From an uncultured beta proteobacterium (lineage in GTDB: Bacteria; Pseudomonadota; Gammaproteobacteria; Burkholderiales; Burkholderiaceae_C): DNA of 39,411 bases. Each line of letters begins with the position of its first letter. The stretch's first letter is position 1. Positions 5,506 through 21,312 of this stretch are shown here, one piece after another. The stretch spans positions 1-39,411 of the forward strand of contig CAIJOK010000123.1 of NCBI GenBank assembly GCA_903822205.1. Direction: 5' to 3'. The notes beneath the pieces are model-generated. The model saw only the letters and a list, made by a program, of their open reading frames with translations, had not been told where the DNA came from and made no database searches. The translations under genes were made by a program, and so were the position numbers.

Positions 5506-6500
5506 TTTCTGTAGTGCTTGTAAATTGGAATGGTTGGAAAGATACAATTGCATGTCTTCAATCATTGCTTAATTCAGATACTGTGCCTGCTCGCTTTATT
5601 GTGGTAGATAACGCTTCAAGCAACGATTCAATTGAACGAATAAGACAATGGGCAAATAAAAAAATCGAAGTTGAAAAAACTGGTGATGAGTGCGAAAAAT
5701 ATGCTTTGCAGGGAAAATATTGTTCAAGGCATATTGTTGATGTTAATTATAATGACATAATAAACAATACTGCTGCATCATCAATGGAATTTTCGTTGCA
5801 TCAAATGCAGCTAATTATTTATTTAGTATGCAGCCCTCGTAATGGCGGCTTTGGTTATGGATGTAACGTCGGTATGTCGTTGGCCAAACAACTGGGTACC
5901 GACGTTATTTGGTTATTAAATAATGATTGTGTTGTGAAATCAGAGTCGTTAAAAATAATTTATAATCATGTATTAAAAAACAAAAATACTATTTTTGGCA
6001 CAGTGTTAAAATATTATTACAAACCTAATAGAACCCAAGCAATTGGCGGTGGCCATCTGTCGCGACTGACGGGTTCTGTTTCAACATTTGATAGACCATC
6101 TTTTCGTAGCACACTTAACTTCATTAACGGTGCTTCAATGGCAGTTTGCAAGGAAATTTTTGAAGCTATTGGTGGTTTTGATGAAAATATTTTTATGTAT
6201 TTTGAGGAAAATGATTTTTGTATCCGCGCTGAAAAAGCTGGATACAAATTTGATGTGATCGATACCGACGTTTTTCACAAACACGGAGGAAGTCTAGGTT
6301 GTAAATCTACAGTTAGGTCATGGGAACAAGTTTATATCAATAAGCATTACGTGTTGAAAAAAAATTTTGGTTGGGGTGTGTGGGTATTTTTCTTTTTTTT
6401 TGTTTTGGTTATCCGTTCATTGTTGCCGGTTGGGCAACAAACGACTAGGCAGGGCGCTAGACGCGCACTTGCACATTTTATTTTTGGTAAAGTTATATGA
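5502..6500 (+). CDS. Family 2 glycosyltransferase (rhamnosyltransferase-like)
   Basis: A 332-aa GT2 enzyme. It starts MISVVLVNWNGWKDT, followed by FIVVDNASSNDS, PRNGGFGYGCNVGM and VIWLLNNDCVV. The LNND segment is the metal-binding DxD variant of the rhamnosyl/GT2 subfamily, and FINGASMAVCKEIFEAIGGFDE is the acceptor-side block. About 60 residues of charged sequence are inserted between the first strands and the NGGFG block. ATG 5502 is preferred because GAGGAAATC just upstream is a good ribosome site and the start overlaps the previous stop by ATGA. It in turn overlaps the next gene by ATGA, so the genes are translationally coupled. Confidence 0.85.
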   Translation: MISVVLVNWNGWKDTIACLQSLLNSDTVPARFIVVDNASSNDSIERIRQWANKKIEVEKTGDECEKYALQGKYCSRHIVDVNYNDIINNTAASSMEFSLHQMQLIIYLVCSPRNGGFGYGCNVGMSLAKQLGTDVIWLLNNDCVVKSESLKIIYNHVLKNKNTIFGTVLKYYYKPNRTQAIGGGHLSRLTGSVSTFDRPSFRSTLNFINGASMAVCKEIFEAIGGFDENIFMYFEENDFCIRAEKAGYKFDVIDTDVFHKHGGSLGCKSTVRSWEQVYINKHYVLKKNFGWGVWVFFFFFVLVIRSLLPVGQQTTRQGARRALAHFIFGKVI

Positions 6501-7654
6501 AAGTTGGAATAGATGCTCGTTTTATTACTCACCAGCCGCGTCGTGGTATTGGTAATTATTCGCTAAATTTAGTGAACGCACTTGTAAGACTTGATCCATC
6601 TGTTGAATACGTTCTGTACATTGCCCAGCCGGACGCTGAGGGTATTTTACCTAGCTTAACTAATGTCAAAGTACGACAGTTGTTTCCATCTATTTATCCG
6701 ATTTGGGAAAATGTTGCTTTGCCTTTTGCCGCTATAAAAGATCGGATCGATGTGCTTCATTGTTTGGGTAATACTGCACCACTTTTTCTTTCGTCAAGCG
6801 TACGTTTGGTGCTATCAATAATGGATGTGATGTTTTTGCAGACTGGCGCATTCGTACCAAAGCCTACGACGCGTTACCAAAGATGGGGACGACTTTACAG
6901 AGCCTTTTTTGTTCCGTTTGTTGCGAGGCGTTCCAAACAAATTATCACGATTTCTGAATTTTCACGGCAGGATATTTCCCATCTTATTTTTGGCATCAAT
7001 CCAAACCAACTGTGCGTTACTCATTTATCGTGTGATCCTATTTTTCATAATTCATTATTTATTACTGAAAATTTTGATGCATGTATTGCAGAAATTGTTT
7101 GCCATCCATTCATTTTTTGCTTGGGTGCAGAAGATCCAAGAAAAAATACACTGCGCTTAGTAAACGCATATTTAAAATTGTTAAAAACAAATGTTATTTC
7201 TGAAAATCTTGTGATCAGTGGTTATGCAAACTGGGATCACAGCGAGGCATATTTTGCTGTCAAAGAAGCTGGTGCTGAGCATCGTGTTAAATTTTTAGGT
7301 TTTATTACGATCAATGAGTTATCACAGCTTTACCGTAAAGCTACAGTCTTTGTTTATCCGTCACTTTACGAAGGATTTGGTATACCTATACTTGAGGCAT
7401 TTTCATCAGGTTGTCCTGTTATTGCGTCCAATGTGACTTCGATTCCCGAGGTGGGTGGCGATGCTGCACTTTATTTTGATCCTTGGAATGAATCAGAAAT
7501 TACTACGACTTTATTACGCGTGATCAATGATTCATCATTACGCCGGATGCTTGTTGAGCGTGGGTTTATTCGTGCCATGATATTTACTTGGGAGGAATCT
7601 GCGCGCAAAACTTTAGCTGTATATCGTGAATACATGGATCCATCGCACATTTGA
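6497..7654 (+). CDS. Family 4 glycosyltransferase (mannosyltransferase-like)
   Basis: A 385-aa GT-B enzyme. N-terminus [10 protein letters not shown]...[12 protein letters not shown] is typical of GT4 mannosyl/rhamnosyl transferases; [11 protein letters not shown] starts the C-terminal Rossmann domain; [20 protein letters not shown] is the E-x7-E donor-binding motif, followed by [19 protein letters not shown]. It is coupled to the preceding gene by an ATGA overlap and ends the first tight operon. A decayed, partly near-identical second copy lies at 9.27-10.41 kb, so this is the intact parent. Donor sugar is inferred only at class level. Confidence 0.85.
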
Positions 7655-9273: not shown

Positions 9274-10411
9274 TCTTGCAGCAGTGCCGTTATATAGGTA
9301 ACTATACTCTCGATTTTTTGAACGAATTAGTGGAGTGCAATCCTACAGTTTAATATATTCTTTACGTTGCCGAACCTGACGATTGGGAAATGATTTCTAA
9401 TTTGCCCAACGTGAAAATTCGAGCGCTATGGCTGTCCATTTTCTCAATTTCTGAAAACATTTCTTTATCACTTGCGTCAATTGTTGATGATCTTGATATT
9501 TTTACTGCTTGTGTAATATTGTGCCTTTGTTTATCCACAGTCTGTGCGTTTGGTATTGACAATACTTTATCTAATGTGTCTAATTTTTTTTGCAGGCAAG
9601 TGAATTTATGCCAAAGCCAACTACACGTTATCAAAAGTGGGGTAGATTTTGCAGTGCATTTTCAGTACCATTTGTTACACGGCATACAGCAAGAATTGTG
9701 CTAGTTTCCGAATTTTTGCGCCATAATGTATTAATGCCTTTTTCTGGAGTGAATCAAGAAAAAATATATGTATTTTATCAATCTTGTGATCTTGTTTTTA
9801 GTAAGTCTTTACCCTTGAAAGAACAGAATAATCCTTGTACTAATGCAATCACTTGCTCGTCGTATATTTTTTGTCTTGGCGCAGAAGATTCAAGAAATAA
9901 TAGACTACGCTTAGTATGCGCATATTTAAAATTGTTTAAAACTAATGTTATTTCTGAAAATCTTGTAATTAGTGGTTATGCAAACTGGGCGCACAGCGAT
10001 GCATGTTTTGCTGTCAAAGAAGCTGGTGCGGAGCATCGTGTTAAATTTTTAGATTTTATTACGATCAATGAGTTATCACTGTTTTGCCGTAAAGCTACAG
10101 CCTTTGTTTATCCGTCACTTTACGAGGGATTTGGCATACCAATTCTTGAGGCATTTTCATCAGGTTGTCCTGTTATTGCGTCCAATGTGACTTCGATTCC
10201 AGAGGTTGGGGGCGATGCTGCACTTTATTTTGATCCATTGAATGAATCAGAAATAACTACGTCTTTATTACGCGTGATCAATGATTTATCATTACGCCGG
10301 ATGATTGATCATTACGTCGGATGCTTGTTAAGCGTGGGTTTATTCGTTCCAAGAAATTTACTTGGGAAGAAACTGATCAAAAAACTTTTGCTGTTTATCG
10401 TGAATGTATAG
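9270..10411 (+). pseudogene. Decayed duplicate of the family 4 glycosyltransferase at 6497-7654
   Basis: DNA similarity to the intact gene can be followed from about its codon 10 to its end. The first part (9270-9590) is strongly diverged and out of frame. 9590-10300 is an open frame containing [25 protein letters not shown] and [20 protein letters not shown]; its 3' portion from about 9930 is nearly identical to the parent. Near the end a 20-bp tandem duplication (around 10300-10322, ATTACGYCGGATG motif twice) shifts the frame, so the normal C-terminus is read out of frame. The start codon and N-terminal domain are lost and the product should be inactive. Confidence 0.8.
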
Positions 10412-12413: not shown

Positions 12414-12446
12414 ACAGGCCGCCCACATCAGCGGCCTGTTTTGTTT
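12414..12446 (+). terminator. Intrinsic terminator
   Basis: Perfect 9-bp stem ACAGGCCGC / GCGGCCTGT (12414-12422 with 12431-12439) around an 8-base loop, followed by TTTGTTT. It would end transcription from the left-hand region just before the DUF3800 remnant. Confidence 0.7.
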
Positions 12447-12459
12447 GTGGAGCACATGC

Positions 12460-12976
12460 ATGCACTTGCTATATCTTGATGAGTCTTGTTCAGCCAGTGA
12501 CCCTTCGCAGCAATATTTTGTTCTTGCTGGTGTTTCGGTATTTGAGCGTGAGGGCCATTGGATTGAGCAAGAACTCAACAACGTGGCAAAACGTTTTGCA
12601 CCACTTGAATCCTACAGCGTTGAGTTACATGGCTCTCCCATGCGCAGCGGTCATGGTCAGTGGCGTCGCCATAGCAAAGAAGATCGGTTACAGGCCATCA
12701 AGGATGCTTGGAAAGTTGGGGGTGCTGACCGCAGGCAGGAATGTTCGACTGTTTGGTGCCGTAATCAAAAAGTCAGCCGCTGTTGGGCAAGACCCGGTCG
12801 AGTTGGCATTTGAGCAACTAACCAGCCGGTTTGACTTGTTCTTCAAGCGCATTTACAGCAAATACAACGATGCTCAACGAGGCTTGATTTTGTTGGACAA
12901 GTCATCCACAGAAAACCGCATACAAACTCTTGCGCGGGAATTTAAGTACTCTGGGCACAACTGGGATAAAACGTAA
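12460..12976 (+). pseudogene. DUF3800 protein, frameshifted and truncated by a mobile element
   Basis: The first frame begins MHLLYLDESCSASDPSQQYF, the conserved DUF3800 opening with the acidic LDES motif, and continues with LAGVSVFEREG. At a run of five G (12718-12722) the family-like sequence moves to another frame (NVRLFGAVIKKS, LLDKSST). That frame stops at the TAA contained in the terminal GTAAC of the short element starting at 12973. Normal DUF3800 proteins have about 50-100 more residues. Either the G-run shift is real decay or a sequence error, but the element truncation alone removes the C-terminus. Confidence 0.6.
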
Positions 12977-13140
12977 CTGTTTAGACCCCCCTCACCGTCA
13001 TTCCCGCGAAGGCGGGAATCCAGACTTCCTGTGCATCCCTGAACACCCAAATACACTGGATTCCCGCCTTCGCGGGAATGACGACTGTTGTTTGCCACCA
13101 CTGGAGTGACTGCATTCGGCATGGGGGTCTAAACGGTTAC
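12973..13140. mobile_element. Short inverted-repeat element, 168-bp form with two dRS3-type palindromes
   Basis: Ends GTAACTGTTTAGACCCCC and GGGGGTCTAAACGGTTAC. The interior contains two ATTCCCGC-type palindromes separated by about 60 bp. Read in reverse it equals the 108-bp copy at 2180 plus the segment between the palindromes. No target duplication is seen. It cuts off the 3' end of the DUF3800 remnant. The remaining 111 bases to the reverse transcriptase stop hold nothing recognisable. Confidence 0.8.
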
Positions 13141-13251: not shown

Positions 13252-14799
13252 TTATAGATGCAGTGTGTGCAGACTGCGTTGTTTGATGCCACCCTTTAGC
13301 CACCCCTGCTCTGCCACATAAACCCACGGCAGCCCCTGCTTTGACAGCTTGTGCGTCACCCGATGCAGACGCGCCATGGGCCATGACAGACCTGCCTCGG
13401 TCGCAGCCCAGCCTGGGCGTTGCACCGGCTTGCCCCCGTGATGGGGCAAACCCGCCACCAGGCGGGCATGGGGACCATAGACCTCCAAACATTTGCCCAC
13501 CTGCATCAGGACGATGGCCGGCGCGAACCGGTTACGAAAATACCGCCATTGGCCGCGCATGGAGGCCACGCCCCGCGCCGACCGGGTGGATTGCAGTTTG
13601 CCGTTGGCGTTCAGCCGAACCACCCATGCCAGCCAGGGGTAGCGCCGCCACAGCGATGCCACCAGACGGTGACTGCTGGCGTGTCCAAAATGCCCCAGAT
13701 AGCTGGCCAGCGTTGAAAAGAGTGGCTGAGGGTCAGCGGGCAATTGCCAGGTTTGCAGTTGATCAGGGGTGATGGCCACACCCGGCAGGTTCATCTGGCG
13801 GTGCAGGCCCTGGCGTGGTGCGATCTGGCGCTCGTAATGGTCCAGTTTGCTATGCAGGTTGGCCACCACTCGCCTGCGAATCAAACGGTAGTTTGGGCGC
13901 TGTACGTAGCCCAAAAAATCAATCCCATTGGAAATCAACTGCAAGCGGCCCGCATCGCGCAAGCCAAGGTCAAGGTGCTGTGCCAAAAACTGGGCAATCT
14001 GCTCTCGCCAGCCGGCCAGCACAGACGGATCATCATGCAGCAAGACCATGTCATCCACATAGCGCACGTAGTATTGACACTTGAGCGTGTGTTTGACAAA
14101 CTGGTCCAGCAGATTGAGGTACACATTGGCAAAAAACTGGCTGGTCAGGTTGCCAATGGGCAGACCGGTCTCAGGCGGCGCATTGATCAGCCGTTTGTGC
14201 TCTGGTACGCGGGCAAATTCTGCCGGATGCCCACGTGTGATGCAGTTTTGGGCTGCGTTGCCGGTGAGCAATACCCGCGTCAGCCACAAAATATCATCGG
14301 CATGGGCGGGGCAAAGATAGCGGGGATCTTTGACCGGACGGCGCTGATCGCGCATCAGGCGTGCCTGCACCAATAGAAACAAACGACGCCGGTTGATGCT
14401 GTTAAAAAAATTGGCCACGTCAAGCTGCAAATAATGGGCCGTCATCCCCAAATCGGGTCGGGCCATAAACGATTGCAAGCGATCTACCGCAGCATGAGTA
14501 CCCTTGCCCTGCCGGTTTGAATAACAATCGTGGATAAATACCGGCTCGAATTGATGCTCTAAAAGAGGCACCAGCAGATGGTGTACCACGCGGTCAGCAA
14601 AATCAGCCGCCAAAATCTCTCTGGCCTTTGGATGCCTAACCACAAAGGCAATGGTGCGGGAGGGGCGCCAAGTTCGCTCAGACAAGGCATGCACAGTGTT
14701 AACCAACTGATCCAACAGATCAATCTCGTAACGCTGTGCGTTACGGGTTTTACGCTTTCGACGGCGACAGGCGAGATAAGCGCTAACCACCGCATCCAT
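13252..14799 (-). CDS. Diversity-generating retroelement reverse transcriptase
   Basis: A 515-aa protein that copies TR RNA into adenine-mutated cDNA for insertion into VR. Motifs: LQLDVANFFNSI (first catalytic Asp at about residue 127), GLPIGNLTSQFFANVYLN (215-229), in which the IGxxxSQ form distinguishes DGR enzymes from group II intron (QGxxxSP) enzymes, and YVDD at 247-250 with two catalytic Asp. FLGYVQRPNYRLIRRR marks the end of the thumb. The tail after about residue 350 is basic, longer than in minimal DGR enzymes and has no recognised domain. The frame is open far upstream through TR, but family-like sequence starts at MDAVVSAYLACRRRK, so ATG 14799, 22 bases after TR, is chosen. No strong ribosome site. 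Probably co-transcribed with avd. Confidence 0.93.
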   Translation of the reverse strand: MDAVVSAYLACRRRKRKTRNAQRYEIDLLDQLVNTVHALSERTWRPSRTIAFVVRHPKAREILAADFADRVVHHLLVPLLEHQFEPVFIHDCYSNRQGKGTHAAVDRLQSFMARPDLGMTAHYLQLDVANFFNSINRRRLFLLVQARLMRDQRRPVKDPRYLCPAHADDILWLTRVLLTGNAAQNCITRGHPAEFARVPEHKRLINAPPETGLPIGNLTSQFFANVYLNLLDQFVKHTLKCQYYVRYVDDMVLLHDDPSVLAGWREQIAQFLAQHLDLGLRDAGRLQLISNGIDFLGYVQRPNYRLIRRRVVANLHSKLDHYERQIAPRQGLHRQMNLPGVAITPDQLQTWQLPADPQPLFSTLASYLGHFGHASSHRLVASLWRRYPWLAWVVRLNANGKLQSTRSARGVASMRGQWRYFRNRFAPAIVLMQVGKCLEVYGPHARLVAGLPHHGGKPVQRPGWAATEAGLSWPMARLHRVTHKLSKQGLPWVYVAEQGWLKGGIKQRSLHTLHL

Positions 14800-14821
14800 T
14801 GTAAAAACCGTCTGTCCACTC

Positions 14822-14954
14822 TCCCGCGCGGACGAGGCGAACCTGGTTGTTGTTGCTCTTATTGTTGTTGTTCGCATTGCCATTGTTGAAATTGACGTTC
14901 CAAGCGTTGTTCGAATTGCCGGAATTGGCCGAAGCCGACCAGAAATTCGACGCG
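14822..14954 (-). repeat. DGR template repeat (TR)
   Basis: In the minus-strand sense this 133-bp stretch contains 17 AAC/AAT codons, so a translation would read FWSASANSGNSNNAW and onward through Asn runs to QVRLVRAG. It matches the VR at 15632-15767 except at adenines (22 differences, 13 A-to-G and 9 A-to-T) and one missing codon. The 3' end (CAGGTTCGCCTCGTCCGCG) is identical in both and is the likely initiation (IMH) region. It lies between avd and the reverse transcriptase, the usual place. Confidence 0.95.
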
Positions 14955-15113
14955 ATAACCCACACACTTGACGACGAGCGCGAAGGCCAAAGCCAAAGCA
15001 CCCGTCCACCGGAGCCACATCCCAAAGGTAGCGGCGACTGAATCAAAATACCCCGCCAGCATCATGCAACGCTGGTGAGGTGGTGTGGGCGCACAGTGGT
15101 TTCGACACACACT

Positions 15114-15527
15114 TCAACCCTCCGCCTTGTGGGCATCAGGTAAAGTTACAGGCCGTGCCTTGGCCCGGGCGCTTTTGCGCCACCCCCCGCTCTGCTTGCC
15201 AACTGCTACAGCCAGTTCGGCCAAGCGGGCAAATTCTGTTTTACTGGCAAGGGCTTGCAGCTCCCTGGCCAATTGAATGGATGTCTTGATGTCTTCGACG
15301 GCAAACACCAGCCTGTCCAGATCGGCCTCTTGCGCTGCCTGTCTGTGGGCTGCCGCACGCACAATGCAGCGGCAAATGGCCATGGCCTGGCGGCGCAGCT
15401 CGGTGCCCAAGGTATATTTGTGGTAGCGCGAAAAACGCCGTACTGCATTCTCGATCTCAACCATCAGGCGGGTGGCATCGTGCCAGATGGGATAGGTGGT
15501 GTGCTTGGCACTTGGGTGATCAGACAT
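15114..15527 (-). CDS. avd: Avd-like accessory variability determinant
   Basis: A 137-aa helical protein of the Avd / 23S-rRNA-intervening-sequence four-helix-bundle type, which in known DGRs forms a basic oligomer binding the reverse transcriptase and TR RNA. Family-like segments are LMVEIENAVRRFSRYHKYTLG, ELRRQAMAICRCIVRAA and LDRLVFAVEDIKTSIQLARE, ending in a Lys/Arg-rich tail (GGWRKSARAKARP). The start MSDHPSAKHT at 15527 is chosen; the longer open frame upstream reads through a terminator hairpin. Position between VR gene and TR supports the role. The start codon is only a few bases after the terminator's T-run, so expression probably depends on read-through or a promoter inside the VR-avd gap. 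Confidence 0.85.
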   Translation of the reverse strand: MSDHPSAKHTTYPIWHDATRLMVEIENAVRRFSRYHKYTLGTELRRQAMAICRCIVRAAAHRQAAQEADLDRLVFAVEDIKTSIQLARELQALASKTEFARLAELAVAVGKQSGGWRKSARAKARPVTLPDAHKAEG

Positions 15528-15533
15528 GTTATT

Positions 15534-15566
15534 AAAAAAAAAAATTTCCGCCCCAAAGGGGCGGAA
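15534..15566 (-). terminator. Intrinsic terminator / VR-downstream hairpin
   Basis: On the minus strand: stem TTCCGCCCC, loop TTT, stem GGGGCGGAA, then A and eleven T. It is a textbook terminator about 60 bases after the VR gene's stop. Its place downstream of VR also recalls the cruciform hairpin that aids retrohoming in the Bordetella phage BPP-1 DGR; the dual role is inference. Confidence 0.8.
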
Positions 15567-15625
15567 TAACAGACAGTGTTCGGTAATCAAAATCCCAGCC
15601 AAGATTAAAAATAAAAAAAGAAAAA

Positions 15626-16390
15626 TCACTGTCCCGCGCGGACGAGGCGAACCTGGACGCCGTAGCCGCCCTTACCGTAGCCGTACGCATAGCCATAGTA
15701 GAAATAGACGCTCCAAGCGCCGTTCGAATAGCCGGAACTGGCCGAAGCCGACCAGAAATACGACGCGGGCGTATTGGGGAACCAGGTGGTGTCGATGGTC
15801 GGCCCAGGATACGCAATGCCATAGTCCACGATGGACATCAGCTCGTTGGTGGTGGGCATGCGCCAATCCGTGGCACCGCACAACCCCGCTGCATTGACAT
15901 CGGCGACGAACTTTTCAGTGTCACAACGGCCTGTGGTTGCGCACGTACCACCTGATGCTGTGCCAGCACCCCCGCCGTTGGTGGCAGCGTTGCTGTTGTA
16001 CCAAGTGTAGGTGTGGCTTTGGCTGCGCAGGCCGCTGGTGGTTTTGACCTCCCATATCAGGCCGGTCACGTTGTCTTTGGTACAGGCCCAGTCGGTGGGG
16101 GCACTGCCCAATGTGGCGGATGCTGGCAACACGCTGCCGTTGTTGGCAATCTTGGTGAAATCAAAGCCCTTGCTGCCGCCCCCCACCTTGGTCAGATTGC
16201 CGGCCCGGGCTGCGGCATCGCGCCCATAGCGACAGTCCTGCCGAGGATGCGTACCGCTGTCGGCCTCGACACCCGTGGTGACCACGGCGGAGTCGTTGTA
16301 GCAGTCGGTAATGCCAGTGTCATTCAGCCCCGCAGCCAGCGCAGTGCCAGTCAGCGTCAAGATCAGTGTGGCGATAAAGGGGTAAAACAT
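15626..16390 (-). CDS. DGR target: secreted DUF1566 (C-type-lectin-like) variable protein
   Basis: A 254-aa protein. Residues 1-20 are a Sec signal peptide (FIATLILTLTGTALAA), so it is exported. The body carries the DUF1566 pattern: VTGLIWEVKT, HTYTWYNSN, DWRMPTTNELMSIVDYG, then YFWSASASSG. DUF1566 domains have a C-type-lectin/FGE-like fold and are common DGR targets because the fold displays hypervariable ligand-contacting residues. VR fills residues 211-254 and the stop follows directly, the standard arrangement. Variable positions are now mostly Tyr, Gly and Ser, typical of a binding surface. Several cysteines (CYN, CRYG, CTKD, CATTGRC, LCGATD) could form disulfides after export. Ligand unknown; polysaccharide or phage surfaces are guesses. 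Confidence 0.93.
   Translation of the reverse strand: MFYPFIATLILTLTGTALAAGLNDTGITDCYNDSAVVTTGVEADSGTHPRQDCRYGRDAAARAGNLTKVGGGSKGFDFTKIANNGSVLPASATLGSAPTDWACTKDNVTGLIWEVKTTSGLRSQSHTYTWYNSNAATNGGGAGTASGGTCATTGRCDTEKFVADVNAAGLCGATDWRMPTTNELMSIVDYGIAYPGPTIDTTWFPNTPASYFWSASASSGYSNGAWSVYFYYGYAYGYGKGGYGVQVRLVRAGQ
15632..15767 (-). repeat. DGR variable region (VR)
   Basis: 136 bp aligned with TR at 14822-14954. All 22 substitutions in the core are at TR adenines; 16 of 17 TR Asn codons are changed. VR has one extra codon (GTC) next to the AAC run, and the last codon (CAG against GAG) marks the edge of the initiation region. Confidence 0.95.
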
Positions 16391-16505: not shown

Positions 16506-16907
16506 TCAGGCGGATCGCACTTCATCAAAGAGATCAGGGTATCGATTCAAAAGTTTGAACAGTTTGATGAGAGCCAGGGGCGGTTTGGCCTTTCCGTTTT
16601 CGTAGCGCGAGAATGCATGGATGCCGCCACCAAAAATTTCAGCGGCTTCACGCTGACCGATGTTGAGCTTTTTGCGCACACTGACAATGAACCCGGGGTC
16701 CACCATGGCCGCGTTGATCTGTTCGTTGAATGCCTGCATTTCGGTCATGACGCGCCCAGTTTCGGCCATGTCCGTGATCGACTCTCCGCATGCAGAACAA
16801 AAATCAGCAGATACCGCACAAATGGTGGTGGTCTCGCCCTGATAGGTATAGGGCAGGTCGCGGGTGTCGTGGATCAGTTCCACTGCGCCACAGGCGGGAC
16901 ATTTCAT
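16506..16907 (-). CDS. mqsA: MqsA-type antitoxin / transcription regulator without its toxin
   Basis: A 133-aa protein, the usual MqsA length (about 131). The N-terminal zinc-binding half has two CxxC pairs (MKCPAC and FCSACGES). The C-terminal half is an Xre-type helix-turn-helix (LNIGQREAAEIFGGGIHAFS, then RYENGKAKPP, then LFKLLNRYPDLF). MqsA neutralises the MqsR ribonuclease and represses its own and stress promoters. A strong ribosome site (AAGGAG) precedes the start. mqsR should lie directly upstream, but only 67 bases and the end of the RCC1 gene are there. Identical 26-bp repeats sit on both sides, so the gene looks like an inserted cassette between the two DUF1566 genes. It may act as a stand-alone regulator. 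Confidence 0.88.
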   Translation of the reverse strand: MKCPACGAVELIHDTRDLPYTYQGETTTICAVSADFCSACGESITDMAETGRVMTEMQAFNEQINAAMVDPGFIVSVRKKLNIGQREAAEIFGGGIHAFSRYENGKAKPPLALIKLFKLLNRYPDLFDEVRSA

Positions 16908-16974: not shown

Positions 16975-19900
16975 CTACGGCTTATTCACCCAAAAACCCG
17001 TGGTGGGCGATAAGGTACCCACAGGAGTATTGGGAAGGGTCACGAAATCAAGGTAACTCTTTTGTGTCAGATAGGTTGCCAGGTTGCCATCATTGGCCAG
17101 GTCGGGTGCCCAAAAGTACCAGCCCTTTTGAGTTGCATCCCAAGCCCACAGGGTTGTAAAGTTGATCGGCAAAATACCCACGGCCTGATGAAAGGCCAAT
17201 GGCGTAGGTTTGTCGCCCGTGGCCACCAGGTTCCAACCCTTGACCAATGCACGATGGCCTGTGCCCGTGGCAAAGCTGGCTGAGCTGACCGTCGTCCCCG
17301 CAGGCAGATTGAGCGTAAACCCTGCTTTTGCATTGACCCAAAAGCCTTCACCTGCCTGGATGGTGGTCAGTGCCTCATAGCCCTTGCCCGCCGCATAAGC
17401 CTTGCCGCCATCAGGCAATGTGGGCGAGTAAAAGGCCCATGCGCCCAGACTGTGCGTTGTGCCGGAGACCACCCACTTCCAGACCGTATTGACCTTGCTC
17501 TCATCACCCAGGGTGCTTGCAACATCCATAGCGGCCTCAATGCCATTGCCCAGCAGGTTCCAGCCAGTGACCAAAGGGGTTTGATCATCGGCATAGGACA
17601 CTGTTGTTGTGGTCATACTGGCTGTCGTGCTGGTGGTTTTTCCAGTTGACGTTGTTGTTGTGGCATGCGACGTGCTCGTTGATGTTGATGTGCTGGTCGA
17701 TGTCGTTGTGCTTGTGGTGGAGGTCGAAGGCGCAGATGTGGTTGGCGTGGTGACAGCCAATATGACTTTTGGACACGTGGGATTTGTACCGCCAAATGTG
17801 ACGATAGTCCTTGGCGTTCCTTTGGCGCTGGTTATGACGGGGATAGCGCAAATCAGGCCTCGGTCGGTCTGACGATTAAGCTGGTTATCCGGGTAGAGGG
17901 TGATTGTCTTGTCAGTCAGATTGCCATCAAACGCTGACTCAGTCACGGCGGTTGCATTACCTTGCTTCCAGCCAGTGCGTGTGTACACCACGGCAGTCAT
18001 CTGGGCCGCTGCTGCCTTGGCGTGCATCGCCTTCGCAGTTTTAAGGTTGCCTGGAGCGCTTTTGCCCGTCAACAGGGGCGAATCAGTAGGCAGCAAACCA
18101 TAAATGTAAAGAGAACCCACCTGGTTTTGTGCGGCAGCATCAAATCGTAAGGTCATGGAAACATCGCCACCCACCTCCGTTCGAACAAAGAAGTCCAATT
18201 GTTTGTCCGCAGGTAGGGGGTCGTTGGCAACATCAGGCAGCAGATCAAAATAACCATTTGCCATGCTGTTGAGCACCGGGGTTGGGCTGAGTTGGGTGGC
18301 CAAGGTGCCCAGTCCCAATTGGCCGTCAACATTGCGCCCCCAGGTCCAGACTGTGCCGTCAGCCTTGGTGGCGATGGTGTGATTGCCCCCTGCAACGATG
18401 GCAGTAAAGCCACTGCCGATGGTCGTTGGACTTGTTTTTGACAACTGGGTGCCATCGCCCAACTGACCGTAGGTGTTGTCCCCCCAAGCCACCAGGGTAC
18501 CGTCAGACTTGAGCGCTACGCTGTGGTTTTCACCCGCTGCGATGGCGCTGTAACCGCTGCCGATCACCTGGGGGGCAGACTGGGTGATCTGGGTGCCATC
18601 GCCCAATTGACCGTAGGTGTTGTTACCCCAGGCCACCAGGGTGCCATCGGACTTGAGCGCCAGGCTGTGAAAGTCGCCAGCCGCGACGGCACTGAAGCCG
18701 CTGCCAACCTGCGCTGGACTGGTGCTGGTTTGCTCCTTGCCCCATGCCATCAGCGAACCGTCGGTTTTGATCGCCACGGTGTGAGCAGCCCCCGCCGCTA
18801 CAGCGCGATAGTCGCTGCCCACCTGGGTTGGCAACGTGGCGCAGGGGTCTTCTCCACAGACCCAGCCGGTGACCACGCCAAGCCGCCCGCTGCCGTTGCT
18901 GCCCCACGCCCAAAGTGTGCCGTCATTTTTAAGTGCCACGGTGTGGTTGTATCCTGCCGAAACGGCACTGTAGTCGTAACCGACAAGCTTGGGGGCCGAA
19001 GCGGCAAAGGTATTGAGTGCAGGAAGGCCAAGCTGACCCACCGTGTTGGAACCCCATGTCCACAATGACCCGTCTAACTTGATCGCCACCGTGTGAGACA
19101 AGCCCGATTCCACTGTTTTAAAGCCAGAACCGATAGCTGTCGGCGTGGAATAGACCAATTTGCTGCTTATGCCAAGCTGGCCAGCGTGGTTTGCCCCCCA
19201 TGACCACAGACTACCATCCGACTTGACTGCAATGGTGTGTGCATTACCGCCTGACGCAGCAACGTAATCGCCGCCTATCGGTACCGGACTGGATCGATCT
19301 GTTTGGCTGCCATCGCCAAGCTGGTTGGCATAGTTGGACCCCCACGCCCACACAGTGCCGTCGGTTTTGATGGCAACAGTGTGATAGTCACCTGCCGCCA
19401 CATCACTGTAATTGATGCCAACCCGTGTCGGGCTGGCTTGCTGGCGGCTGACAGAGCCAATGCCCAGTTGCCCCGAATCATTGCGGCCCCACGCCATCAA
19501 GGTGCCGTTTGTTTTGAGGGCCAGGGTGTGGAACGACCCGGCTGTGACCGCTTTGTAGTCGCTTCCAACTTGGGTCGGACGCAGTATGGAGTCACTGACA
19601 CCCCCATTGCCAAGCTGGCCGTATGTGTTGTCACCCCACGCCCAAAGCGTACCGTCGCTCCTGAGAGCCAGGGTAAAGAAGTCCCCGGCAGCCACGGCAA
19701 CATAATTGTTGGCACTGCCGACTTGCCTTGGGCTGGAATGGTTGGTGACGGAGCCATCACCCAGTTGCCCGTTACGGTTGTCACCCCATGACCACAGTGT
19801 GCCGTCAGCCTTGAGTGCAACGGCGTGTTTCTCCCCCGCCGACACTGCGATGAAGTTGCTGTCACTGCCTATCTGCACCGGAATGGATCGGTAGGTCGTG

Positions 19901-21312
19901 GTGTCATCGCCCAGTTGTCCCGAACTGTTGTTGCCCCACGCCCACAAGGTGCCGTCCGTCTTGACAGCAAAGCTTTGGAACAAGCAGGCCGCAACCATTT
20001 GGTAGTTGTCTTCATCACCAATCTGTACCGGAGTGGGGCGGGTGGCCGTGGAGCCATCGCCAAGTTGCCCGAACTCGTTGCTTCCCCATGCCCACAAGGT
20101 GCCGTCCGTCTTGATCGCCAGGGTATGAGCCGCGCCTGAGGCCAAGGTGGACCGATCCTGACCAGAGGGTATCGCTTTGAAATTGTTGCCAATTGGATGG
20201 TGTACAGCCGTCTGTAGCATCAACCCCACTCCAAGCATGCCGCCTTGATCGCTACCCCAGCCCCAAAGTTGTCCGCTGCCGTCGATGGCAAACGATGATG
20301 AATAACCCGCCGCTGCCTTGACACCCCCTTTGAGGGTGCCGGCACCGGAAGATTGGGCTGTACGGACCAAGCGAACTTGAAGGGTGCTGCTTTTTGGTCG
20401 GTGGTAATCCAAGAAACCCGTGAAAAAATCAAAGCACCAGGCTTCGCTCAAATTGCCGGAATAAGCCGATGCCGACCAAAACGCCGACGCATCCGATTTT
20501 GGAAACAGACTGACATTGATATAAGAATCACCAGTGCCGTTGAAATCCACCAGGCTAAGAAGTTCATCCTCAGTCGGCAATCGCCAGTCTGTTTGACCGG
20601 CAACACTGCTGGTCAATATTTTGGCGGCATCCCATGTATAAGTCTTGACCGTACCCGTGCAAATGCCCGCGCTAAAGACCTGCCCTATGGCGCATTTTTG
20701 CCACATCAAACCCGTGGGGATATGCGTGACCGTGCCATCAGAATGATCCACGTAATCTGTATTTGGTCTTGAAATATTCAAAAGATCAAGAGACTGTCCG
20801 GCCCGCACGAGGCGTGCCTGGAAGGTAAAGCTCTGACCGTTGCTGCTCGCGTAGCCACCGCTGAAATCGACAACCCAAGCGTAGCCAGAATAGCTGGCAT
20901 CGGTCGAAGCCGACCAGAAACCCAGCGCGTCAGTATTTGGAAAAGCAAGCCTGTCGATCGCAGGGTTGTCAACCGACCGATCGACAATCGTCTGAAGCTC
21001 ACGAATACTGGGCAGCCGCCAATCGCTCTTGCCCGCAAACGTTAACGTCTTCGTTAGCGCATTGGCCTCATCCCATGTGTAACCAGGTGCTGTGCCGGTG
21101 CAGGTCGTTCGATCCCAGGTTTGGCCCATGGCGCACCGCATCCACACCAGCCCTGTGGTCGGGTCGGTGACTGTGCCGTCCCCATTGTCAGAATAAGTCT
21201 TGGCCGCCAGTGCCGTCCCCGCCCCCACCCCCACCCCCACCCCCACCCCCACCATCAGGCTGGTCAGCACCAGCCAGCGAAACAGATTAAGAAATCCAGC
21301 AAGCACCTTCAT
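16975..21312 (-). CDS. Large secreted protein: two DUF1566 modules, 14 RCC1 repeats, Thr/Ser linker, C-terminal GWNL repeats
   Basis: A 1445-aa protein. Residues 1-37 are a signal peptide with an odd GVGVGVGVG core. DUF1566 module 1 (about 38-173: GLVWMRCAMGQTW, DWRLPSIRELQTIVD, GFWSAS) and module 2 (about 185-320: GLMWQKCAIG, DWRLPTEDELLSLVD, AFWSAS) follow. Residues about 330-1017 hold 14 RCC1-like repeats (GTLWAWGSNEFGQLGDG type), enough for two seven-bladed propellers. About 1018-1180 is an unassigned beta-rich region. About 1187-1240 is a Thr/Ser-rich linker. The last 200 residues hold two related blocks starting GWNLLGNG and GWNLVATG. Likely an extracellular binding protein. Module 1's lectin loop region aligns with the DGR template. 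It opens the DGR locus and has an AAAGGATG ribosome site. Confidence 0.85.
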   Translation of the reverse strand: MKVLAGFLNLFRWLVLTSLMVGVGVGVGVGAGTALAAKTYSDNGDGTVTDPTTGLVWMRCAMGQTWDRTTCTGTAPGYTWDEANALTKTLTFAGKSDWRLPSIRELQTIVDRSVDNPAIDRLAFPNTDALGFWSASTDASYSGYAWVVDFSGGYASSNGQSFTFQARLVRAGQSLDLLNISRPNTDYVDHSDGTVTHIPTGLMWQKCAIGQVFSAGICTGTVKTYTWDAAKILTSSVAGQTDWRLPTEDELLSLVDFNGTGDSYINVSLFPKSDASAFWSASAYSGNLSEAWCFDFFTGFLDYHRPKSSTLQVRLVRTAQSSGAGTLKGGVKAAAGYSSSFAIDGSGQLWGWGSDQGGMLGVGLMLQTAVHHPIGNNFKAIPSGQDRSTLASGAAHTLAIKTDGTLWAWGSNEFGQLGDGSTATRPTPVQIGDEDNYQMVAACLFQSFAVKTDGTLWAWGNNSSGQLGDDTTTYRSIPVQIGSDSNFIAVSAGEKHAVALKADGTLWSWGDNRNGQLGDGSVTNHSSPRQVGSANNYVAVAAGDFFTLALRSDGTLWAWGDNTYGQLGNGGVSDSILRPTQVGSDYKAVTAGSFHTLALKTNGTLMAWGRNDSGQLGIGSVSRQQASPTRVGINYSDVAAGDYHTVAIKTDGTVWAWGSNYANQLGDGSQTDRSSPVPIGGDYVAASGGNAHTIAVKSDGSLWSWGANHAGQLGISSKLVYSTPTAIGSGFKTVESGLSHTVAIKLDGSLWTWGSNTVGQLGLPALNTFAASAPKLVGYDYSAVSAGYNHTVALKNDGTLWAWGSNGSGRLGVVTGWVCGEDPCATLPTQVGSDYRAVAAGAAHTVAIKTDGSLMAWGKEQTSTSPAQVGSGFSAVAAGDFHSLALKSDGTLVAWGNNTYGQLGDGTQITQSAPQVIGSGYSAIAAGENHSVALKSDGTLVAWGDNTYGQLGDGTQLSKTSPTTIGSGFTAIVAGGNHTIATKADGTVWTWGRNVDGQLGLGTLATQLSPTPVLNSMANGYFDLLPDVANDPLPADKQLDFFVRTEVGGDVSMTLRFDAAAQNQVGSLYIYGLLPTDSPLLTGKSAPGNLKTAKAMHAKAAAAQMTAVVYTRTGWKQGNATAVTESAFDGNLTDKTITLYPDNQLNRQTDRGLICAIPVITSAKGTPRTIVTFGGTNPTCPKVILAVTTPTTSAPSTSTTSTTTSTSTSTSTSTSHATTTTSTGKTTSTTASMTTTTVSYADDQTPLVTGWNLLGNGIEAAMDVASTLGDESKVNTVWKWVVSGTTHSLGAWAFYSPTLPDGGKAYAAGKGYEALTTIQAGEGFWVNAKAGFTLNLPAGTTVSSASFATGTGHRALVKGWNLVATGDKPTPLAFHQAVGILPINFTTLWAWDATQKGWYFWAPDLANDGNLATYLTQKSYLDFVTLPNTPVGTLSPTTGFWVNKP
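20353..20484 (-). other. DUF1566 module 2 VR-equivalent segment (fixed)
   Basis: Residues 277-320 of the RCC1 protein, 44 codons, the same length as the active VR. It keeps FWSASAYSG and QVRLVR but is too diverged at all base types for adenine-directed mutation to be recognised. Best seen as a static homologue. Confidence 0.5.
20794..20922 (-). other. Probable fossil VR in DUF1566 module 1
   Basis: 43 codons (residues 131-173) align with TR without gaps. By hand count 24 of 40 TR adenines are changed but only 13 of the 89 other bases, the bias expected of adenine mutagenesis plus later drift. The initiation end has 5 changes in 27 bases against the active VR, so current targeting is doubtful. 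Confidence 0.7.
21222..21251. repeat. Hexanucleotide tandem repeat (CCCCCA x5) in a signal peptide
   Basis: Five perfect CCCCCA units on the + strand encode the Gly-Val repeat in the signal-peptide core of the RCC1 protein. Unit-number changes would alter signal length without shifting the frame. Confidence 0.9.

Follow-up and report, generated by a model that had tools for sequence, protein, structure and literature searches.

Diversity-generating retroelements (DGRs) have been held to act almost only at the 3' ends of genes, a restriction attributed to cis signals whose presence would disrupt coding sequence (PMC8144416), and a C-terminal position of the variable repeat (VR) is described as nearly universal (PMC8144416, PMC7517822), with the tentaclins of gut phages as a printed exception (PMC10743442). 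The DGR of the Bordetella phage BPP-1 needs a hairpin downstream of its VR (PMC3240598), and one survey states that its own approach is blind to remote targets (PMC8144416). Here we describe a chromosomal DGR in a 39,411-nt stretch of DNA from an uncultured beta proteobacterium of the Burkholderiales (GenBank assembly GCA_903822205.1, contig CAIJOK010000123.1). This whole stretch is called the window; it is contig C123 of genome G000, and sites elsewhere are named contig:position. A single cassette of Avd, template repeat (TR) and reverse transcriptase (RT) very probably serves several targets in trans (we put this at about 0.86), judging from the anatomy of the locus, the adenine specificity at four sites, the conserved repeats set between diverged flanks, the internal position of the remote sites and the recurrence of the pattern in a second genome.

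A complete DGR cassette

All parts of the cassette lie on the minus strand of the window, in the order Lcl_C target gene, avd, TR and RT. Its features, including the initiation of mutagenic homing (IMH) sequences, are as follows:

15626..16390, minus strand: local target gene, 254 aa, Lcl_C/DUF1566 (Pfam Lcl_C, E 1.5e-28), with a hydrophobic N-terminus and the VR as its C-terminus
15627..15767, minus strand: local VR, with 22 of 40 TR adenines changed, one extra codon and G>C at the edge
15632..15655, minus strand: IMH of the local VR in the exact TR form, 24 bases, same as the TR copy
15603..15626, minus strand: T-rich stretch directly past the local VR edge, a candidate target box (matrix p 0.003 against random stretches)
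15546..15566, minus strand: hairpin between target and avd, 9-bp stem, 3-nt loop and T tail, terminator-like, about 60 nt past the VR
15114..15527, minus strand: avd (accessory variability determinant), PHROG Avd 9e-21
14817..14954, minus strand: TR, the apparent source of four strict VRs
14822..14845, minus strand: IMH* (the IMH copy in the TR), by sequence match
13252..14799, minus strand: DGR-type RT, 515 aa (phrog_1423 5e-91; RVT_1 1e-11)

The avd product also matched Pfam bAvd (2e-8) and NCBIfam Avd (3e-8), both under the family cut-offs. The RT motifs IGNLTSQ and YVDD were read directly by eye, the closest solved structure to the RT is 8ub7 (2.6e-31), which we take to be the BPP-1 DGR RT, and the RT and avd reading frames are both open. 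The initial annotation of this DNA, made from the letters alone, had called a complete DGR of target, Avd, TR and DGR-type RT, which the profile matches and motifs bear out: the locus has a DGR-type RT, an adenine-directed TR/VR pair, Avd and an IMH with a small IMH/IMH* difference. Its RT is the single DGR RT of the genome, and a second one as donor was rejected, because group II maturase is the best-scoring assignment for both remaining RVT_1 matches. Folding of the RNA of the avd-RT gap including the TR gave nothing remarkable (z = -1.5). DUF1566 has been linked to the C-type-lectin fold (PMC6642488); together with the hydrophobic N-termini seen by eye, this makes an exported binding surface plausible for the local target, and the targets as a group are predicted to be secreted and to bind ligands.

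Adenine-specific changes in the local VR

Over the 138 bases of the TR, 22 of 40 adenines differ in the local VR and every substitution falls at a TR adenine; within the 124-base core the difference is 21/37 adenines against 0/87 other positions (Fisher p 4e-14). Sixteen of the 17 Asn codons of the TR are changed in the VR on direct reading. Both counts given by the initial annotation, 22 substitutions all at TR adenines and 16 of 17 Asn codons, were confirmed in this way, while its split of 13 A>G and 9 A>T becomes 12 and 10 in the present alignment and returns to 13 and 9 with the gap placed elsewhere. Its absence of A-to-C changes is true of the local VR only, as the strict VRs of this genome and of a second genome (G702, described below), when pooled, contain 113 A>G, 63 A>T and 13 A>C changes.

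The 24-base IMH is the same in TR and VR, and the outer repeat edge differs (TR GGGAGAGTG versus VR GGGACAGTG), with an edge base of G in the TR and C in the VR. The identical 3' end claimed earlier was therefore not upheld, given this edge difference and a one-codon insertion in the VR; likewise, agreement of TR and VR base for base stands for substitutions inside the core and fails for the extra codon and the edge. That account had overlooked the whole-codon insertion, the edge G-to-C change and three further VRs on two other contigs. The edge difference does not reflect noise, since it recurs in related viral loci, where the VR has CAG and the TR has GAG in 121 of 135 VRs.

Three further strict VRs on other contigs

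Searching the whole genome with the TR (3.05 Mb in 146 contigs; completeness 100, contamination 0.39) returned 26 matches with E no higher than 10; besides the TR itself, 18 of them were below 0.02, and 17 of these 18 sites were aligned (C108:887, E 0.018, was left out). Four sites are strict VRs, whose cores differ from the TR at 16/37 adenines (C145:842), 17/37 (C146:11390), 16/37 (C146:11834) and 21/37 (local), each with 0/87 changes at other bases; pooled, 70/148 adenine positions differ against 0/348 others. Apart from the TR, only these four VRs have the exact TR-form IMH, among 17 matches at up to 3 mismatches. Recent mutagenic homing, as proposed initially, is supported, and the three additional VRs strengthen the case. 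A single target is right as far as the local gene goes and is otherwise incomplete, at least four VRs in three open reading frames (ORFs) appearing to be served by this TR.

The flanks of the four strict VRs are only 58-66% identical pairwise over 210 nt before the repeat and 45-69% over 90 nt after it. Their cores are 84-88% identical pairwise, differing at adenine positions and agreeing elsewhere. The reverse is seen at C77:1448, the sister domain of C146:11390, where the flanks are 86% and 91% identical, yet the core has 6 non-A changes and the IMH is different. These figures bear on the idea that this is an ordinary single-target DGR, with remote sites that are Lcl_C paralogues in which the variable loop coincides by chance with the TR adenines. 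The genome does contain 27 Lcl_C matches over the family cut-off, and diverged TR-like sites are A-biased too, for example C123:20793 with 22/37 A versus 12/87 non-A changes; we did not count this bias as evidence, because variable loops would give some. Four sites entirely free of non-A differences between such diverged flanks, with exact non-A identity confined to the repeat, led us to reject paralogy alone and make this explanation extremely improbable.

The mutual differences of the VRs at adenine positions speak, in addition, against the copying of one VR into another. Remote VRs spread by ordinary VR-to-VR recombination, rather than by TR cDNA, would fit the edge C that is common to all VRs where the TR has G, which means that at least the last bases are not TR-copied. 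A VR copy, however, would bring the donor's bases with it unless they were mutated anew, and we regard this route as very unlikely.

VRs inside large multidomain proteins

The product of the C145 ORF is 1,365 aa long and has an Lcl_C domain close to its N-terminus as well as Fn3, Ig-like and cadherin-like domains and RCC1 repeats; 1,137 residues come after the VR at C145:842. The C146 ORF (1,240 aa) has RCC1 repeats, a Thr-rich linker and two consecutive Lcl_C domains, each with a strict VR, after which 428 and 279 residues remain. The local VR is at the 3' end of its gene and the three remote VRs are not. For comparison, we analyzed 82 RT-related loci (81 viral contigs and one bacterial metagenome-assembled genome; the viral set taken from the alignment scan consists of the best 80 of 551) with frames set on TR Asn codons. 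TR/VR pairs were found in 75 of the 82 loci with 136 VRs, and 135/136 end within 15 codons of the stop, the single exception having a 2-base deletion, which agrees with the near-universal C-terminal position in print. A claim to the first non-C-terminal VR was dropped owing to the tentaclins.

An assembly or binning artefact that joined repeats to foreign flanks could be suspected in a genome of 146 contigs, the more so as several sites lie near contig ends (C145 at 842; C146 at 11.4-12.0 of 13.0 kb). The ORFs are nevertheless open across the VRs, C145 and C146 carry ordinary chromosomal genes, the genome has the completeness and contamination values given above, and G702 shows the same pattern independently, so that such an artefact is highly improbable.

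A second genome and spread among relatives

G702 belongs to another family of the same class and has the nearest RT among the genomes searched (60% identical). Its TR matches 15 further sites in G702, and ten VRs have at most three non-A core changes, seven of them with at most one and three with three. In the seven strictest VRs pooled, 119/251 A versus 4/616 non-A positions differ. The ten VRs are distributed over six ORFs, including one that is cut off by the contig end; pairs spaced 418-423 bases apart are present in four of the ORFs, and nine of the ten VRs are internal.

Relatives of the RT, own genome included each time, were found in 9/200 genomes of the own family (E 1e-20), 4/399 of the order and 4/369 of the class (both E 1e-60). 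Scans with single proteins gave one distant locus among genome contigs and one among viral contigs, and the matches in plasmid and phage searches (40 plasmid records, 95 phage records) were all below 60% identity.

Length differences in AAC runs

The extra codon of the local VR relative to the TR lies in the second AAC run. C146:11390 has one more codon in the first run, C146:11834 one more in both, and at C145:842 neither is longer; the extra codons are themselves adenine-mutated. Because all four run-length combinations occur, stepwise loss from one TR is no explanation. Three-base TR/VR differences were present in 3/137 VRs of the viral set (one longer, two shorter), and among other chromosomal DGRs, L070, L076 and one L072 VR are longer than the TR in AAC-rich runs, in each case by a multiple of three. 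These steps of three are best read as slippage during cDNA synthesis. Slippage in multiples of three was proposed earlier (PMC12875486), and AAC slippage was therefore dropped as a novelty.

Signals downstream of the VR

A BPP-1-type hairpin was defined as a GC-rich stem of 7-10 bp with a 4-nt loop, 4-34 bp past the VR, and the scan recovered the BPP-1 hairpin itself (8 bp, 4-nt loop) as a positive control. No such hairpin was found past the three remote VRs, where the best stems are 4, 5 and 4 bp, or past the ten G702 VRs, with stems of 3-5 bp. Viral VRs of the RT clade are near the shuffled level, with stems of at least 7 bp in 8/132 versus 3/132 shuffled, a null that is not flat.

We then aligned viral VRs at the repeat edge: of 135, 14 without a C/G anchor and 37 of the remaining 121 as near-duplicates were removed, leaving 84. 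Their consensus over the next 14 bases is AATTGGCCTTTTGG, fading past about 16. A run of at least four T at positions 5-26 occurs in 39/84 of these VRs versus 0/84 TRs (mean 4.9 and maximum 13 in 200 shuffles). Scored with the viral-trained matrix against random stretches of the own genome's loci, the local VR has p 0.003, C145:842 0.007 and the C146 pair 0.055 and 0.052, and the ten G702 VRs range from 0.0008 to 0.0175. In the related viral loci, a T-rich box comes after the VR and not after the TR; past the internal VRs it is weaker. Among 26 Lcl_C domains of the own genome, the T run is present in 11/13 with a GGACAGT edge and 2/13 without (Fisher p 0.0012, for related domains that are not independent).

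From these data it is possible, though we hold it only tentatively, that the target signal in this RT lineage consists of the edge plus a short box without a hairpin. The TR would end xGAGT and the VR xCAGT, and the next ~16 bases, on the target side only, would read roughly AATTGGCCTTTTTGA. Since such a box is compatible with coding sequence (it would translate to about QSF[DN]xF), the DGR would no longer be tied to gene ends and would have colonised lectin-like domains that are internal and in tandem; one cassette would in this way diversify a family of large surface proteins throughout the genome. Several results count against this role of the box, which is a candidate only: 18/84 viral VRs fall below the 99% null although they form the training set, 45/84 lack a T run of four, both C146 sites reach only about p 0.05, and several diverged sites also bear the box. 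Nine other chromosomal DGR loci contributed 14 VRs, of which 8 reach p <0.05 and 6 do not; the offset was widened for scoring 13 of the 14, which had no C/G anchor. For the own genome, a linker conserved within the protein family may account for part of the box.

Proposed mechanism and evidence against it

By analogy with BPP-1, for which the mechanism is known, cDNA homing would be the cause of the VR pattern. The error-prone RT with Avd would copy the TR transcript and read its adenines ambiguously, and the cDNA would replace genomic sites with a matching 3' edge. These would be the VR at the C-terminus of the local target and, in large multidomain proteins elsewhere, three or more remote VRs. 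Internal targets would be possible because homing in this lineage presumably has no need for the downstream hairpin of BPP-1.

Several observations weigh against one cassette serving targets in trans. Thirteen of the 17 aligned sites are diverged and carry between 4 and 20 non-A changes; they are older targets or mere relatives, and for three of them the alignment takes in only part of the core or only its last bases. The tenth G702 VR, which is the local one (C72:2701, L175), has a one-base deletion that shifts the frame, which runs on for 34 residues, reflecting either a sequencing error or a broken gene. When remote VRs were sought with the own TR at E 0.001 in three DGR genomes with more distant RTs, only local VRs were found (two in G012, one in G389 and two in G647), and the same-genus genome G121 has no such RT and no TR match. 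The repeats of one assembly can at most suggest that the DGR is active at present. The system might be a recently dead relic, with sites diversified formerly and no longer: a single assembly offers no proof of turnover, and the many decayed sites and the deletion in the G702 local VR fit such a history. Against it, the RT and avd frames are open, and the absence of any non-A difference among 348 positions leaves little time for drift, so that we consider a relic rather unlikely and retain a DGR serving several targets in trans.

If this is true, a large share of what such bacteria diversify escapes surveys confined to RT surroundings or gene ends. In two genomes, near-strictly adenine-mutated VRs, frequently paired, lie hundreds of residues before the stop, for which the post-VR box is a testable explanation.

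Diverged sites and other features of the window

Two diverged sites lie in a giant gene of the window:

16975..21312, minus strand: giant protein, 1,445 aa, with two N-terminal Lcl_C domains and RCC1 repeats, the same make-up as the remote targets
20793..20929, minus strand: TR-like site within the giant gene, diverged, an older target or a relative; differences at 22/37 A and 12/87 non-A positions
20352..20490, minus strand: another diverged TR-like site of the same gene, with differences at 19/36 A and 20/80 non-A positions

C49:4354 (L056) is a stand-alone Lcl_C gene with its stop directly past the repeat edge and 15/87 non-A changes, perhaps an old target; it has the best post-VR box score of the 17 own-genome sites scored (p 0.0001). 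C77:2127 and C77:2586 (L053) belong to one 933-aa ORF with four Lcl_C domains, two of which have TR-like sites of intermediate divergence.

An MqsA-type antitoxin gene (16506-16907, minus strand, PF15731 5e-59) separates the DGR target from the giant RCC1 gene; no mqsR-like ORF was seen adjoining it in the ORF list, and no search aimed at mqsR was made. A perfect 28-bp inverted repeat with a 32-nt spacer is intergenic (12996-13023 / 13056-13083). The ORF at 6497-7654 resembles a decayed partial copy of the glycosyltransferase-like ORF at 9590-10411 (shared KPTTRYQ.WGR and later stretches, by eye), and a DUF3800 remnant (12445-12810, plus strand, 1.5e-5) overlaps another ORF and appears degenerate.

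Comparison with known systems

The DGR of BPP-1 (PMC3240598) shares the Avd-TR-RT order, the adenine-directed change and the IMH at the VR 3' end, and its mtd gene ends in the VR, as does the local target here. It differs in the 8-bp, 4-nt-loop hairpin directly past the VR, whereas none follows the internal VRs here, and the targets of the present DGR are several and internal. In Treponema denticola (PMC4891356), one TR and RT likewise go with two to seven target genes, most of them distant from the cassette; the TvpA VR is C-terminal, 38/56 varying columns are TR adenines, and no tandem or internal VR is described in the available text. Yan et al. 2019 (PMC6642488) reported 271/948 DGRs with multiple VRs, 31 of the 271 with VRs in one ORF, and DUF1566 as a common target; in a Stenotrophomonas DGR, six VRs lie in separate ORFs, five of which encode DUF1566 proteins. 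That survey differs in allowing up to three non-A changes, and the portion of it available mentions neither tandem pairs at the domain level nor a flank test nor an internal position. Tentaclins (PMC10743442) belong to phage DGRs with two local targets, have one VR per tentaclin, and are Ig-like rather than RCC1/tandem Lcl_C proteins. Cyanobacterial DGRs (PMC7517822) have 76 dispersed remote targets assigned by TR similarity, in their case at >50% TR identity and all near the 3' end of CLec genes. A literature search, with most subscription journals outside its coverage, returned no paper joining DGR with RCC1, T-rich, or internal, tandem or Lcl_C VRs. Precedents exist singly for remote targets, multi-VR ORFs, 5'-located VRs and AAC slippage, and what is new is their combination: a single DGR having internal as well as tandem VRs within giant proteins that are probably secreted, seen in two genomes.

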